Assembly: GCF_000265295.1 (NCBI RefSeq) | Contig: NC_018002.1 | Span: 1,240,001 to 1,304,000 of the forward strand | DNA: 64,000 nucleotides | Direction: 5' to 3' | Origin: Sulfurospirillum barnesii SES-3 | Lineage (GTDB): Bacteria; Campylobacterota; Campylobacteria; Campylobacterales; Sulfurospirillaceae | In this document: in pieces, positions 21,952 to 29,248 of the stretch | Position numbering within the stretch: position 1 is the stretch's first letter | Layout: every line of letters starts with the position of its first letter | Made by a program: the position numbers and the translations under genes | The notes under the pieces: generated by a model | Database searches by the model: none | What the model saw: the letters and a program-made list of their open reading frames with translations, nothing else | What the model was told of the DNA's origin: nothing

Positions 21952-22665
21952 ATGCACCTCAGTGAAGGATTACTCAGACCTGAGATTTTAATCGGTGGAG
22001 CAGTCGTTTCGGCTGCTTTTACCCTGTATGCGTTTAAAACACTCAAAGATGATGAAATTCCTAAAACGGCCGTACTTTCAGCGCTGTTCTTTTTGGCGTC
22101 GTTCATTCATGTCCCCATTGGTCCCACATCGGTACACCTTGTTTTAGGGGGCATTATAGGCGCTATGCTAGGCATAAGAGCTTTCATTGCTATCTTTGTC
22201 GCCCTTTTACTCCAAGGCGTTCTTTTTGGCTTTGGAGGACTTACGACGCTGGGTATCAACCTCTTCAATCTTGCCACGCCAACACTGGTTGGGTATTGGC
22301 TTTTTATGCTTCCTCCCACCAAACGCTGGCACAAAGATTTGCTCTGGTTTTTAATTGGGTTTGTTCCTTTAGCGCTTTCAGCCGTAAAGCTCTTAGATGC
22401 GAACCAAAAAGAGCTTTTAACCCTTAAAACCGATGATGAGGGCAAAGCATCCGCCACATTGCCTGCGGCTGAATTTGACATTATCCTTGAAGCAGGCATG
22501 GGACACCAAACACAAACACACTATATCGCTCAAAGTCACACCAAAGAAGAGGCAAAAACATTGCCCTCCGATACACCTTGGGATAAAATGCTCTTGGGAT
22601 TGGCTATAATTGTTTTTTTCTTTGGAGCACTTTTTTGGATAAAACGCAAACCCAGCCACGCATAG
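21952..22665 (+). CDS. nikM: ECF nickel/cobalt substrate-specific component with added periplasmic domain (NikM-like)
   Basis: The N-terminus MHLSEG carries the conserved metal-binding amino terminus and His2; a further conserved His62 lies in TSVHLVLGG. About five membrane helices fill residues 11-145 (CbiM/NikM core). Residues about 146-208 are then predicted periplasmic, with LKTDDEGKASATLP and AGMGHQTQTHY, a pattern I associate with NikL-type beta domains, followed by a last membrane helix (213-230) and a basic tail. This looks like a NikM-NikL fusion with reduced length. It starts one base after the NikK-like stop and overlaps the T-component gene by 31 bases. Confidence 0.78.
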   Translation: MHLSEGLLRPEILIGGAVVSAAFTLYAFKTLKDDEIPKTAVLSALFFLASFIHVPIGPTSVHLVLGGIIGAMLGIRAFIAIFVALLLQGVLFGFGGLTTLGINLFNLATPTLVGYWLFMLPPTKRWHKDLLWFLIGFVPLALSAVKLLDANQKELLTLKTDDEGKASATLPAAEFDIILEAGMGHQTQTHYIAQSHTKEEAKTLPSDTPWDKMLLGLAIIVFFFGALFWIKRKPSHA

Positions 22666-23312
22666 CACCGACAACAGCGCTTCTTTTAGCGTTGTTGTAC
22701 AGCACCGTCGTGGCATTACAAGAGCATCTTTATCTCCCCATACTTTTGCCACTGCTGTTGCTTGGTTGGCTACAAAAAGCGTCACTGTGGAGCATCTTCA
22801 AGCGACTCTTTTTGCTCAATACCCTCATTGCCATCGTTGTGGCAAGCATGCTTTGGCAAGAAAACTATGAATTGGCACTGCTTATTTTTTTACGATCCAA
22901 TTTTATTTTACTGTTTGTATTAACGATTTTTCAAGGCAAAGATGAATTTTCCATCGCCATTGCGATGCAGCGTTTGCATCTGCCGCACAAACTCACCTCC
23001 ATCTTCTTTTTCACGGCAAAGTCCATTTTTCTCATCAAACGAGAGTTTACACTTTTCAAAAATACCTTACATGTAAGAGGATTTATTCCTAAAACCAATC
23101 TTCTAACCTATAAAACAATGGCAGGATTTGTGGGCATTTTGTTCATTAAAGCATTGGAGCGCTCACTTTGGCTTCAAAAAGCGATGCACCTGCGTGGTTT
23201 TTGCGGTGAAGTCTATACTCTAGAAGCGCATCAAGACTTGAGCGCTTACGATACGCTACTTGCTTTTATCACGATTTTATCGCTCGTTTGGCGACAAGGA
23301 GCCCTTATATGA
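22635..23312 (+). CDS. nikQ: ECF transporter transmembrane (T) component (NikQ/CbiQ-like)
   Basis: A 225-residue membrane protein with helices near 10-30, 37-50, 60-75 and 86-100. Two A/L-x-x-R-G coupling motifs that bind the ATPase are visible: NTLHVRGF near residue 143 and KAMHLRGF near residue 180. These are the hallmark of CbiQ-type T components. The start at 22635 overlaps the NikM-like gene by 31 bases; no better start is evident. A palindrome copy at 23067-23076 lies exactly on the first coupling motif and supplies its Leu-His-Val. Confidence 0.8.
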   Translation: MDKTQTQPRIAPTTALLLALLYSTVVALQEHLYLPILLPLLLLGWLQKASLWSIFKRLFLLNTLIAIVVASMLWQENYELALLIFLRSNFILLFVLTIFQGKDEFSIAIAMQRLHLPHKLTSIFFFTAKSIFLIKREFTLFKNTLHVRGFIPKTNLLTYKTMAGFVGILFIKALERSLWLQKAMHLRGFCGEVYTLEAHQDLSAYDTLLAFITILSLVWRQGALI

Positions 23313-24010
23313 GCTGTTCGGTGAATATCAAAAACCTCTCGACCTCACGCGATGGTGTGCGTTTGTATGAAAATGTGACACTCGATGTCTCACATAAAGA
23401 GAAGATTGCCATTATTGGTCCCAATGGCTGTGGCAAAACAACGCTTTTAGAGATTATCGCAGGGCTTAGAAGCTTAGAAGAAGGCACTTTAGAGCTCTTT
23501 CACCAGCCGATGCACTCTTTGGAAGATTTTAAAAGCATGCGTCATCTCATCGGTTACCTGTTTCAAGATTCAGACAACCAGTTTTTAGCGCCTGTGGTTG
23601 AAGATGATGTCGCCTTTAGCCTTTTGGCGAGTGGTGTTTCCAAAGAGGAAGCCAAACTCAAAACAGCGATGATGCTGCAAGATTTGGGCATTGCACATTT
23701 GGCAAAAAAGATCGTCTATCATCTCTCAGGCGGAGAGAAAAAGCTGGTCGCATTGGCAGGCGTTTTGATTATGGAGCCCAAACTCATGCTTTTGGATGAA
23801 CCCACCAATGGACTCGATCAAGCGATGCAGTTACGCTTGGTGGATATTTTAGGACGCATTGATAAGAGTATTATTATTGTCTCGCACCATAAAGCGTTTA
23901 TAGAATCTGTTGTGGAAAAAATATACGAGATAACCCCACAAGGCGTTATCTGTCTACCCAATCATGCTACCCCTAAGTATCCTAAAGATACACAAGGTAG
24001 CAGGGATTAA
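23309..24010 (+). CDS. nikO: ECF nickel/cobalt transporter ATPase (NikO/CbiO-like)
   Basis: ATPase powering the importer. I choose ATG 23309, which overlaps the T-component stop as ATGA, rather than an upstream TTG. Motifs: Walker A IGPNGCGKTT, Q-loop YLFQDSDNQFLAPVVEDDVAF (the SDNQF-x-VxxDVAF stretch is typical of ECF ATPases), signature HLSGGEKKLVALAG, Walker B LMLLDEPTNGLD, switch His in IVSHHKAF. Length is about 233 residues. It ends four bases into the convergent pdxA gene's stop region with no visible terminator between. Confidence 0.87.
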   Translation: MSCSVNIKNLSTSRDGVRLYENVTLDVSHKEKIAIIGPNGCGKTTLLEIIAGLRSLEEGTLELFHQPMHSLEDFKSMRHLIGYLFQDSDNQFLAPVVEDDVAFSLLASGVSKEEAKLKTAMMLQDLGIAHLAKKIVYHLSGGEKKLVALAGVLIMEPKLMLLDEPTNGLDQAMQLRLVDILGRIDKSIIIVSHHKAFIESVVEKIYEITPQGVICLPNHATPKYPKDTQGSRD

Positions 24011-25781: not shown

Positions 25782-26936
25782 TTACGGACGCCGAATATGC
25801 GCTTTATCTAAAATACCGTATTCGAAATCTTTATGACAGGCAAAACAGTTCGATGCACTTTTGACATCCACTGGTAACACCACATTTTCATGAATGTCTC
25901 TCCAATAAGGCACTTTTTTCATGGAAAGTGGACGAAGTTCTCCTAGCGATTGGAGGGTTTTAAGTGCCAATGTGTGGTTTGAATCTTCAGCACTGTGTGC
26001 GATTAAATAAGCATAAATACTTTCTTGATCTGCTTTTGTAATATTATGTTCGCTAATCGTTTCACCAAAATGATTTTCCAACCCTTGCATAAGTTTTGCC
26101 CATGAATCCTTTGGAAGCATAAAAGGAGGGTAGGGTTTATGACAACTTGAGCATTGCTTGTAGGCACTATTTTCAGCTTGAAAATCACGTTTTTCAACAT
26201 ACGTTTGTGTTAAAAAAGTCTCTTCATAACTCTTTACATGTAAAACAATAAAAAGGCATAAAGCGATGCTACCATACGCAAAAATATGTAAAGGTAAAGA
26301 GACATGGGCATCTTCTCCTGTTGCTTTCTTATAACCTGTAATCATCGCAAACACCATATGTGTTTTATGGTAAAATTGTTCGATCAAAACACCTAAAATA
26401 TGAATCATACTACAGGCAAAAAGCGTGTAGGCAAGAACGCTATGCAGCCACATAAAATGTGTAGAAAATTGAAAATAAGATGGATGTAAAAATCCCAACA
26501 ATCCACTAGCGTCTTCAATGCCTTGCACCACTAAACCACTGATGACAATCAGTATTCCAAAACTTAAGACAATGATGGTAAACCAACTAGAAGCGGCATT
26601 GTGACCTGCATGAATGGTGCGCCATCTGTTCTGAATTTTTTCAACAAAATAGTATTTTAAGGCATTGAGGCTAAGTTGAAAGGTTTTAAAGGTGGCATAA
26701 TGAGGTCCGATAAAACCCCAAATAATGCGAAAAAGTAATACCACTCCAAAAATAAAGCCAAAGCAAATATGCCACACATACCATTGATAAAAAAATGAAG
26801 TGATAAAAGCAAGTAAAAAAGAGGTCGCAATAATCCAATGGATGATACGTGTACACAGTGGCCAGACAAACACTCTTTTTGGTGTATTCATAGTGCAGGC
26901 GGATGTTTTTTGATGCGTTTTTTCACCAAAAAACAT
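25782..26936 (-). CDS. Cytochrome b561-type membrane protein fused to a diheme cytochrome c domain
   Basis: A 384-residue membrane cytochrome. The N-terminal ~230 residues hold five hydrophobic helices with histidines placed as in b-type cytochromes of hydrogenase/b561 class (TRIIHWIIATSFLL, WHICFGFIFGVVLLFRIIWGF, FMWLHSVLAYTLFACSMIHILG). The C-terminal periplasmic part has two heme c sites, CSSCH at about 262-266 and CFACH at about 364-368. It probably exchanges electrons between quinone and periplasmic carriers. It follows the cytochrome c and SQR-like genes and likely forms one module with them. An internal ATG at 26891 is an alternative start. A palindrome copy (26234-26243) encodes Leu-His-Val at the end of helix 5. 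Confidence 0.75.
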   Translation of the reverse strand: MFFGEKTHQKTSACTMNTPKRVFVWPLCTRIIHWIIATSFLLAFITSFFYQWYVWHICFGFIFGVVLLFRIIWGFIGPHYATFKTFQLSLNALKYYFVEKIQNRWRTIHAGHNAASSWFTIIVLSFGILIVISGLVVQGIEDASGLLGFLHPSYFQFSTHFMWLHSVLAYTLFACSMIHILGVLIEQFYHKTHMVFAMITGYKKATGEDAHVSLPLHIFAYGSIALCLFIVLHVKSYEETFLTQTYVEKRDFQAENSAYKQCSSCHKPYPPFMLPKDSWAKLMQGLENHFGETISEHNITKADQESIYAYLIAHSAEDSNHTLALKTLQSLGELRPLSMKKVPYWRDIHENVVLPVDVKSASNCFACHKDFEYGILDKAHIRRP

Positions 26937-26947
26937 CCCTATCCGTT

Positions 26948-27322
26948 CTATTTTGCTTGATTGAAGGTTGTGAAAATATAATTCGCCATTGCTTTAATGT
27001 CGTAGTCATACCCTTTTTCAGTCAGCTTTTTCATATTGTGTTCCATTACTTCATGCTCACTAGCCGTTGATTGCCCAAGCCCACCGTTTTTAATATCAAA
27101 CAATGCCATCTCCAACTCTTGAATACTTAGTTTATTAATGGCAGGACTTTTCTTTTCAGCAACACCTTCACCTTTTGCCCCATGACAGTGCAAGCAGGTC
27201 TCTTTATAAACAACATCCGTAGTGTATTTATACGTTTTTACTTCCTCTTTTGGCTTAGAGTTACAGCCACTTAAAACAACCAAGGCAACCATAAGCGAGA
27301 GTGCTATATTTATTTTTTTCAT
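26948..27322 (-). CDS. Small periplasmic c-type cytochrome (lipoprotein)
   Basis: Start chosen at 27322 (KKINIALSL), because AAAGGA is well spaced there; an upstream ATG at 27343 adds seven residues. A lipobox LSGC follows the hydrophobic signal, so the protein is probably lipid-anchored. One heme site, CLHCHGAKGEG, lies about 25 residues into the mature protein, and a Met-containing segment (EHEVMEHNMKKL) could provide the axial ligand, giving a class I monoheme cytochrome near 105 mature residues. It sits between the SQR-like flavoprotein and the membrane cytochrome and is the natural electron shuttle between them. Confidence 0.8.
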   Translation of the reverse strand: MKKINIALSLMVALVVLSGCNSKPKEEVKTYKYTTDVVYKETCLHCHGAKGEGVAEKKSPAINKLSIQELEMALFDIKNGGLGQSTASEHEVMEHNMKKLTEKGYDYDIKAMANYIFTTFNQAK

Positions 27323-27349
27323 TATTAATCCTTTTTGTGTCATCGTTAA

Positions 27350-28819
27350 TTAAGCGCGGCCTGAGAGCATACCATAGATGGTCATTGGCTTAAGCGCATA
27401 GACTTTTACCAACCACCAAAACCATCGCTCCTGCGTTGGGTCAAGTGGCACAGATGGCGTTGGTTTTGCCGTCCAATTAAACTCCGCCATCATAACCGTT
27501 CCAATACTGGTAATTAAAGGACAAACCGTATAACCATCGTATGCGGAAGGAAGAGATTCTTTCTTCTCCATAACCGCAATAAGATTATCCGCTACAACAC
27601 CGTATTGCTTACGTGCGCTTCCGCCTGTTTTGCCCATAGGAAGTGCAGCAACATCACCAATGGCAAAAACATTTTTATATTTGACATGTTGTAAGGTCTC
27701 TTTTACCACAGGTACCCAGCCTTTGTTGGAGCCAAGAGGTGAGTTACCAACAACATCAGGTGCTTTTTGAGGCGGTGTTACATGGATAAAGTCATATTTT
27801 TTCTCAACATTTTCACTTTTAACCACCATGGTATATTCTTGTAAATCCTCGTCGTATTCACCTTTTTCAAGCCATTTTTTCTCAAAAGTTGCTATTTTTT
27901 TGTCAGTATCAATCGCAATGAGATTGGTTTTGTACTCCCATTTAAAATTTCTTACTTTAAATTGCTCGAGAATCGCCTCGTGGTATTCAGGAACACCAAA
28001 CATTTTATCACCCGATGGACAGAATATCAGCTCAACCTTATCTCTAACCCCCGCTTTACTCAATAAATCATGGGTAATATACATAATTTTCTTCGGTGCC
28101 CCACCGCATTTAATAGCTGTATCAGGGTCGGTAAAAAGTGCCTGTAGCTTTTCACTTCCTGTATGAGCTTTAGCTTTTACAATTAACTCTTGAATTCCTT
28201 TATAAGTATCAACAGCACCGTCTGCAAAATAGATAGAATAAACACCATCCTTACCTAATTTCTTTTTGACGATTTCATTTTCGCCTGAAGAGGTGATTTC
28301 ACCTTCTAATCCTTTAATAGCCCCAAAATTTAAATGCAGTCCTGTTGCAACAATCAAATAATCATAACTGACTTCTGTTCCATTTTTTAAACGCACTTTA
28401 TTTGCATCAGGATCAAACCCAACCACAAAATCTTGAATCCATTTTACGCCACTAGGAAGAAACTTAGCCGTTTCATATTCAATGTCGCTTTTTTTCCAAA
28501 TACCAGCAGCAATCAGTGTTTGTCCTGGCTGGTACGAAACTGATTTTGGGTTTGGTTCAATAATAGTAATGTCTGGGTTTGAAAGCGTGTGTGTGAGTCT
28601 TGCGGCTGTTGCCATACCTGCAAGCCCAGCGCCAACAATGACGATTTTACCTTTTGCATTTGAAGAAGCCTTTGCAGCAACTGGAACGCTAGCACTTCCC
28701 AAAACACCTGCGGCTATAGGAGAGAGTGCTAAAAGTTTCATCGCCTCTCGACGTGAGAGTATACCCTCTTGTTTTTCAATCTCATGAAGTACTTCTTCAA
28801 TGATTTTGTTTTGTTTCAT
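27350..28819 (-). CDS. Tat-exported sulfide:quinone oxidoreductase-like flavoprotein
   Basis: From ATG 28819 (AAAGGA upstream) the protein is 489 residues. The N-terminus has a twin-arginine motif, SRREAMKLLALSP, with a hydrophobic stretch, so it is exported folded with FAD. The FAD motif IVIVGAGLAGMATAARL and late FAD motif FAIGDVAALPMGKTGGSARKQ are clear. Cys238 in IKCGGAPKK and Cys433 in GYTVCPLITS match the two redox cysteines of type II-like SQR; the extra FAD-binding cysteine of some SQRs is not seen. Sulfide oxidation or polysulfide chemistry is inferred. It heads a three-gene - strand cluster with cytochromes. Confidence 0.78.
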   Translation of the reverse strand: MKQNKIIEEVLHEIEKQEGILSRREAMKLLALSPIAAGVLGSASVPVAAKASSNAKGKIVIVGAGLAGMATAARLTHTLSNPDITIIEPNPKSVSYQPGQTLIAAGIWKKSDIEYETAKFLPSGVKWIQDFVVGFDPDANKVRLKNGTEVSYDYLIVATGLHLNFGAIKGLEGEITSSGENEIVKKKLGKDGVYSIYFADGAVDTYKGIQELIVKAKAHTGSEKLQALFTDPDTAIKCGGAPKKIMYITHDLLSKAGVRDKVELIFCPSGDKMFGVPEYHEAILEQFKVRNFKWEYKTNLIAIDTDKKIATFEKKWLEKGEYDEDLQEYTMVVKSENVEKKYDFIHVTPPQKAPDVVGNSPLGSNKGWVPVVKETLQHVKYKNVFAIGDVAALPMGKTGGSARKQYGVVADNLIAVMEKKESLPSAYDGYTVCPLITSIGTVMMAEFNWTAKPTPSVPLDPTQERWFWWLVKVYALKPMTIYGMLSGRA

Positions 28820-29023
28820 AACAATTACCCGTCCTTTATATTGAGTGTTTCCCCATTCTACTTCCACTAATCTAAGGTTTTCCTTGCTTAAAAAAATTAT
28901 ACCTGATTATTTTACTTGTTTATAGTTTTCTAAAAATATTGCAACTATGTAACACACAAAAAACCTACTCTTAAGTTATATTTGCTTAAAATCACTCTTT
29001 ATTTCTTTAAGTAAGTGAAGCCT

Positions 29024-29248
29024 ATGAAAAAAGAGTGTGCTATTTTTATTATATTGCTTTTTGTGTTGTCATTGGGCATCCATATGAATCAGTGGATAGC
29101 CTATCCCATCGAACATTTCAAGCACTTAGCTGAGCATCAAATGCCTTACCATCCGCTGCTGTATACCTTTATTGTCTATCTTTTACTGGGCATCATTCGT
29201 CTAGTGATTCACGGCATTATTAAACTTTTTACCCTACGTAGCCGTTAG
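29024..29248 (+). CDS. Small two-helix membrane protein
   Basis: I do not recognise a family. From ATG 29024 the protein is 74 residues, with two membrane helices (about residues 6-22 and 48-68) joined by a His-rich linker, and a basic C-terminus, so both ends are probably cytoplasmic. An upstream in-frame GTG at 29015 is less likely. It is followed after nine bases by the Ppx/GppA gene, with which it may be cotranscribed. Confidence 0.6.
   Translation: MKKECAIFIILLFVLSLGIHMNQWIAYPIEHFKHLAEHQMPYHPLLYTFIVYLLLGIIRLVIHGIIKLFTLRSR

Follow-up and report, generated by a model that had tools for sequence, protein, structure and literature searches.

Sulfurospirillum barnesii SES-3 carries, within a 64,000-nucleotide stretch of contig NC_018002.1 (positions 1,240,001 to 1,304,000; the whole stretch is called the window here), three consecutive minus-strand genes for an exported flavoprotein and two cytochromes. 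The first encodes a type II sulfide:quinone oxidoreductase (SQR)-like flavoprotein with predicted export by the Tat pathway (27350-28819; 489 amino acids; Pfam Pyr_redox_2). It is followed by genes for a lipoprotein monoheme cytochrome c (26948-27322; 124 amino acids, from an ATG at 27322 to a stop ending at 26948) and for b561/DHC, a cytochrome b561 fused to a diheme cytochrome c (25782-26936; 384 amino acids; five membrane helices). SQR is usually treated as a single-subunit enzyme that passes its electrons straight to quinone and conserves no energy. That an exported SQR is encoded together with dedicated cytochromes suggests a form of this enzyme, thought to act alone, that is wired to partners. 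That the three genes form a real unit is well supported. We assign a probability of about one half to the reading that they encode a module for sulfide/polysulfide:menaquinone electron transfer, wired to the membrane at the periplasmic face.

Conservation and genomic context of the three-gene unit

The window genes run in the order SQR, cytochrome c, and b561/DHC, separated by 27 and 11 bases, confirming the order and strand proposed in a first-pass annotation of this DNA. In a survey of 24 genomes of the genus, SQR is present in 23 and the complete unit in 22; the two remaining genomes are cut at this site (in G006 SQR stands at a contig end, and in G003 the contig stops just past the gene for a small membrane protein described below). 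Named genomes were also scanned with a b561/DHC alignment, and the best 80 of 184 relatives were kept. SQR and cytochrome c genes lie upstream on the same strand in 56 of these 80 loci, and 18 are SHP/DHC-type operons; the non-SHP loci thus number 62, and 56 of them show the same-strand order SQR-cytochrome c-b561/DHC. In the six loci without a visible SQR the contig ends nearby or, in one Hydrogenimonas locus with a different order, at the Psr genes.

A tree built from 87 b561/DHC proteins contains one well supported branch of 67 rows, of which 63 are linked to SQR and 4 stand at contig ends. All 17 SHP-type rows lack SQR, and a Hydrogenimonas-type trio, two of whose members are SQR-linked, stands separately; the trees are quick FastTree trees with long-branch warnings. 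Across 397 genomes of the class, 26 of the best 28 b561/DHC matches adjoin SQR, against none of the 40 rows that come next. This comparison covers 68 rows from the top of the match list, three others having been left out (a paralogue and two from genomes of the order), and its cut at row 28 was chosen with the data already in view. The class and genus genomes overlap in part with the named loci.

Co-occurrence elsewhere is therefore established, with the same gene order in Sulfurospirillaceae, Sulfurovaceae, Sulfurimonadaceae, and Arcobacteraceae. The earlier suggestion that some of the combination is specific to Campylobacterota also fits, as all 80 of the loci kept from the 184 relatives are Campylobacterota-like; one metagenome-assembled genome labelled Proteobacteria groups inside Sulfurospirillum in the b561/DHC tree. 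The genes flanking the unit vary by family. In Sulfurospirillum the unit sits between what we take to be ilvB/ppx and pdxJ (names from translations; only Ppx/GppA by Pfam), in Sulfurovum-like genomes it presumably follows pyrG/recJ, and in Sulfurimonas-like genomes it lies behind genes that we read as leuC/mobA-like. These differing flanks indicate that the unit moves as a block, and a chance neighborhood is ruled out by the conservation of the order across different genomic contexts.

Outside Sulfurospirillum, the unit is commonly linked to genes of the PsrABC/PhsABC type, which encode a separate enzyme. Among the 33 SQR loci from other genera that could be scored (at least 1500 bases downstream), 28 have a molybdopterin subunit gene on the same strand. 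Iron-sulfur and NrfD-type membrane subunits are also found in most Psr-linked loci that extend far enough; the Psr family scans were run on one set of loci. The best NCBIfam model for the linked molybdopterin subunit is PhsA, below its cut-off, so that “polysulfide/thiosulfate reductase” is a class assignment only. No such linkage occurs in the 14 Sulfurospirillum-like loci. In the window genome a relative of the molybdopterin subunit (57%, over the whole protein) is encoded at another site, followed by PsrB, a PsrC-like protein, and a rhodanese, and a search of 23 genus genomes found PsrA relatives in 22. Arcobacter-type genomes hold a single block (SQR, Tll0287-like protein, cytochrome c, small protein, b561/DHC, PsrABC, rhodanese), of which the Sulfurospirillum arrangement looks like a divided form. 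Loci of the Arcobacter, Halarcobacter, and Hydrogenimonas types (L118:3805-4380, L199, L201, L202, L220, and L224) add the Tll0287-like protein, which has a single CXXCH, to the cassette.

The flavoprotein, its cytochromes, and a small membrane protein

The description of the flavoprotein as an SQR-type protein with a Tat motif and two redox cysteines holds, as do its coordinates. The twin-arginine motif (SRREAMK, residues 22-28), with a hydrophobic stretch, marks it as a predicted Tat substrate. Cysteines occur only at positions 238, 267, and 433 of the 489 residues; C238 and C433 align with cysteines of the SQOR motifs and, like R23 and R24, are invariant in 52 homologues. Among solved proteins, a single-sequence search ranks human SQOR first (E 8e-73), ahead of Aquifex SQR (9e-20) and the flavocytochrome c 1fcd (2e-19), and a profile search widens the interval (2e-119 versus 2e-34 and 8e-28, respectively). 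The structural model (mean pLDDT 87.8) gives the same ranking in Foldseek, with SQOR at 1e-44, Acidithiobacillus SQR at 5e-26, and flavocytochrome c at 2e-22. By sequence and model, the window flavoprotein is assigned to the type II SQRs, nearer to SQOR than to type I SQR or flavocytochrome c.

Type II SQRs such as human SQOR (6oi5) and those of Epsilonproteobacteria share the fold and the redox cysteine pair, and a Tat motif is carried by every epsilonproteobacterial type II SQR tabulated by Han and Perner (PMC4584964). The window SQR differs in being encoded with a cytochrome c, b561/DHC, a small membrane protein, and, elsewhere, PsrABC; the available section of that paper on type II SQR mentions no such partners. 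Flavocytochrome c (FccAB; 1fcd, 3vrd, 5n1t) pairs an exported sulfide-oxidizing flavoprotein with a cytochrome c partner, as may the window SQR, whose conserved gene neighbor encodes a cytochrome c, but the window flavoprotein is a type II SQR rather than an FccB, and the unit includes an additional membrane b/DHC protein. In FccB-type proteins, FAD is held covalently by a cysteine of the N-terminal domain. Membership in the flavocytochrome c family was rejected because the window SQR has no cysteine in that domain and flavocytochrome c ranks lower in the sequence, profile, and Foldseek comparisons.

Relatives of the flavoprotein occur in several other settings. At L083:6084-7481 an exported SQR-like paralogue has both redox cysteines substituted and probably has another function. 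In Sulfurimonas-like loci (L128, L130, L135, and L052) SQR is accompanied by a multi-domain rhodanese, which suggests sulfane sulfur transfer; sometimes two tandem SQR copies flank the small protein there. Exported type II SQRs are also found on plasmids of Paracoccus, Cereibacter, and Salinivibrio (L228:3992-5674, L230:2381-4060, and L227:3974-5646). A gene for a small membrane protein begins about 12 bases or less after each of these SQRs (DUF5368 in Paracoccus, and in Cereibacter by alignment), perhaps an independent case of an SQR with a small membrane partner.

The two cytochromes also agree with their first description. The cytochrome c has a lipobox (LSGC) and one CXXCH in its translation and matches Pfam Cytochrom_C (E 7e-7), as expected of a lipidated monoheme protein. 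The b561/DHC, described earlier as a five-helix cytochrome b with two c-hemes, matches Ni_hydr_CYTB (E 3e-18) and DHC (E 2e-24), and its model has five membrane-length helices (mean pLDDT 88.2). Comparison with homologues suggests that translation may instead begin at the ATG at 26891. Residues H33, H56, H165, H179, H289, and H349 and both CXXCH motifs are invariant in 42 rows; from this pattern we infer that the first four histidines are b-heme ligands and that H289 and H349 are the distal c-heme ligands. Solved relatives are DHC (2fw5/3u99) and the hydrogenase-1 b subunit (4gd3). In Foldseek the model matches DHC and FdnI (1kqf_C), and nothing in the list rises beyond noise except DHC entries and FdnI. 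FdnI and the hydrogenase-1 b subunit have a b-heme domain of the kind predicted here, with which they link a periplasmic dehydrogenase to menaquinone; in contrast, the window protein is fused to DHC and would be fed by a flavoprotein and a cytochrome c rather than by iron-sulfur subunits.

The architecture of b561/DHC is known from SHP/DHC/cytochrome b operons, whose CytB/DHC chimera has two b- and two c-hemes and a link to quinone (PMC2909971), features also predicted in the window. The unit differs from these operons in having an exported SQR as partner and a b561/DHC in a separate clade of the tree. Genes for SHP, a soluble DHC, or a sensor kinase are absent from its surroundings, nothing in the window matches SHP, the DHC probe matches only the fused domain there, and the named-loci table has no SHP or DHC at SQR-bearing loci; identity with an SHP operon was therefore rejected. 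A full SHP/DHC/b561-DHC operon accompanied by regulator-like genes occurs in other Sulfurospirillum genomes (L082:6910-9266), whereas the window genome has only the SQR-linked b561/DHC and no SHP-type one.

A fourth partner of the SQR unit, unmentioned in the first-pass annotation, is a small membrane protein of 74 amino acids encoded divergently from the SQR gene (29024-29248, plus strand). Two membrane helices are predicted in it, together with a loop in which conserved histidines and prolines are frequent; H20, P28, H43, P44, Y52, and R59 are invariant in 14 rows, and Pfam and NCBIfam scans gave no confident family match. The charge pattern suggests that both ends lie inside and the histidine-rich loop outside, on the same side as SQR. 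The protein is present in 110 of 397 class genomes, of which 106 are SQR-positive, and 77 of the 287 genomes without it are SQR-positive; the exact test on this co-occurrence ignores relatedness. Of the 112 small-protein genes among the matches listed, 76 are no more than 3 kb from an SQR gene, 12 share a contig with SQR at a greater distance, and 24 lie on contigs with no listed SQR, a class that may include linked ones. The small protein adjoins SQR in different families, and also where cytochromes are absent (L062, L064, and L065), which ties it to SQR itself; our guess is that it holds SQR on the membrane or aids its assembly.

Both halves of the system have been described separately: Tat-exported type II SQRs (PMC4584964) and CytB/DHC chimeras feeding SHP (PMC2909971) are already published. 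Sulfide oxidation in Sulfurospirillum has been discussed in terms of a bidirectional polysulfide reductase, and the term SQR is absent from the main text of that paper as available (Ross et al., PMC4794192); a 2026 paper on the genus lists sqr and fcc genes (PMC13209400). Lithotrophic growth of S. deleyianum on sulfide and nitrate is reported in the title of a 1995 paper cited in the reference list of PMC3035281. Searches of the open-library literature turned up no account of SQR, cytochrome c, and b561/DHC in combination, and among the papers listed by one of these searches none held both Sulfurospirillum and cytochrome b561.

Proposed electron path and direction

The following scheme for the working of the unit is a proposal. 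The Tat-exported SQR would interconvert sulfide and (poly)sulfane sulfur at Cys238/Cys433 and FAD. The lipid-anchored cytochrome c would dock on SQR and hand electrons to the two periplasmic c-hemes of b561/DHC, from which two b-hemes (putative ligand pairs H56/H165 and H33/H179) would take them across the membrane to menaquinone. The small two-helix protein might anchor SQR at the membrane or support assembly. The linkage to a PsrABC/PhsABC-type reductase, and sometimes to a rhodanese, in many Campylobacterota suggests that the module cooperates with polysulfide turnover. The first-pass annotation had offered the wiring of an exported SQR through cytochrome c to the b/diheme protein, or its reverse; the PsrABC linkage strengthens that wiring as a hypothesis. 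The potentials of sulfide/polysulfide and menaquinone are near enough for either direction. FdnI/HyaC-class b subunits reduce menaquinone with periplasmic electrons, and FdnI thereby builds membrane potential. Because the catalytic subunit is an SQR, oxidation of sulfide to polysulfide is modestly favored over reduction as the usual direction.

A molybdenum-free polysulfide reductase working beside Psr would use the same parts in reverse, with b561/DHC oxidizing menaquinol and passing electrons by way of cytochrome c to an SQR-like flavoprotein that reduces polysulfide or sulfur. At standard potentials, electrons would have to move uphill from menaquinol to polysulfide, which would require proton motive force or methylmenaquinone. 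The link to PsrABC-type genes agrees with such a role, as do the respiration of sulfur compounds by the genus (PMC4794192), a reducing-direction Sqr claimed for Sulfurovum (PMC10045233), and the quinol-to-SHP direction proposed for the same CytB/DHC architecture (PMC2909971). However, the type II SQR of S. indicum is missing from the SQRs whose upregulation during sulfur reduction is reported in the available text of PMC10045233, and we regard this reverse mode as unlikely.

Alternatively, SQR alone might reduce menaquinone, with the cytochrome c and b561/DHC forming a separate, co-regulated link between quinol and cytochrome c (e.g., to PsrA or an oxidase). The fold is intact, with an SQOR-like C-terminal helix, and solo SQRs exist; yet the near-fixed order SQR-cytochrome c-b561/DHC across genomic contexts favors direct contact. 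In sister genera, SQR lies beside a two-heme cytochrome c of the same family with no adjacent b561, which also suggests that SQR and cytochrome c touch directly. We consider action of SQR by itself quite improbable. That sister-genus pairing of an exported flavoprotein with a two-domain cytochrome c is also the layout of FccAB, and flavocytochrome c is a lower-ranking structural match of SQR. By analogy, SQR and cytochrome c could deliver electrons to cytochromes of the periplasm and to a terminal oxidase or peroxidase, and b561/DHC would be a side branch to the quinone pool. The first 237 residues of SQR contain no cysteine, and hence no FccB-type covalent FAD is expected, and the membrane b protein that follows cytochrome c in the window and at the SQR loci of the named-genome scan points to quinone; this analogy is very improbable indeed.

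Several observations weigh against the wired module as a strict chain. The C-terminal hydrophobic helix of SQR is retained as in SQOR, with no sign that its own quinone site has been lost, and the C-terminus stops where that of a signal-less Mesobacillus relative stops, which leaves room for direct quinone reduction by SQR. Loss of the quinone site, considered at first from the short C-terminus, was dropped on account of this shared end point. Some related exported SQRs have a rhodanese or just the small protein beside them and others stand alone, so the SQR family as a whole does not need the cytochromes. Sister genera have a two-heme cytochrome in place of the monoheme one and no adjacent b561, and in one genus genome (G015) the cytochrome c gene is broken by a 23-base frameshifting deletion (L070:8470-8820), a point that would equally suit an SQR acting alone. 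The published direction for the CytB/DHC chimera is from quinol to cytochrome (PMC2909971).

A further elaboration of the membrane-wired module is an energy-conserving sulfide:menaquinone oxidoreductase, in which SQR, otherwise a lone and electroneutral enzyme, would be the catalytic subunit of a redox loop running through cytochrome c, DHC, and two b-hemes, menaquinone would be reduced on the cytoplasmic side, the two-helix protein would be a new small subunit, and the whole would be reversible alongside Psr in sulfur cycling; we consider this somewhat improbable. If the wired module is correct, Campylobacterota could generate proton motive force from sulfide oxidation itself, or run the module in reverse for sulfur respiration. 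Sulfurospirillum would gain a concrete candidate for sulfide oxidation, SQR and polysulfide reductase would be placed in one system, and the uncharacterized small membrane protein of the 110 class genomes would have a testable role.

Intergenic region and neighboring genes

The SQR and small-protein genes diverge from an intergenic region (28820-29023) that is a candidate shared regulatory region by its sequence, and this divergent layout recurs in relatives within the genus. Between 24900 and 29400 a terminator scan found no terminator-like sites (shuffled mean 2.9), and a promoter scan found 17 promoter-like sites versus 14.8 by chance; with promoters at chance level and no terminator, the scans are neutral on cotranscription. 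On the opposite strand, the window carries cobalt/nickel ECF-like transport genes (CbiM-like, CbiQ, and an ATPase) at 21952-24010.

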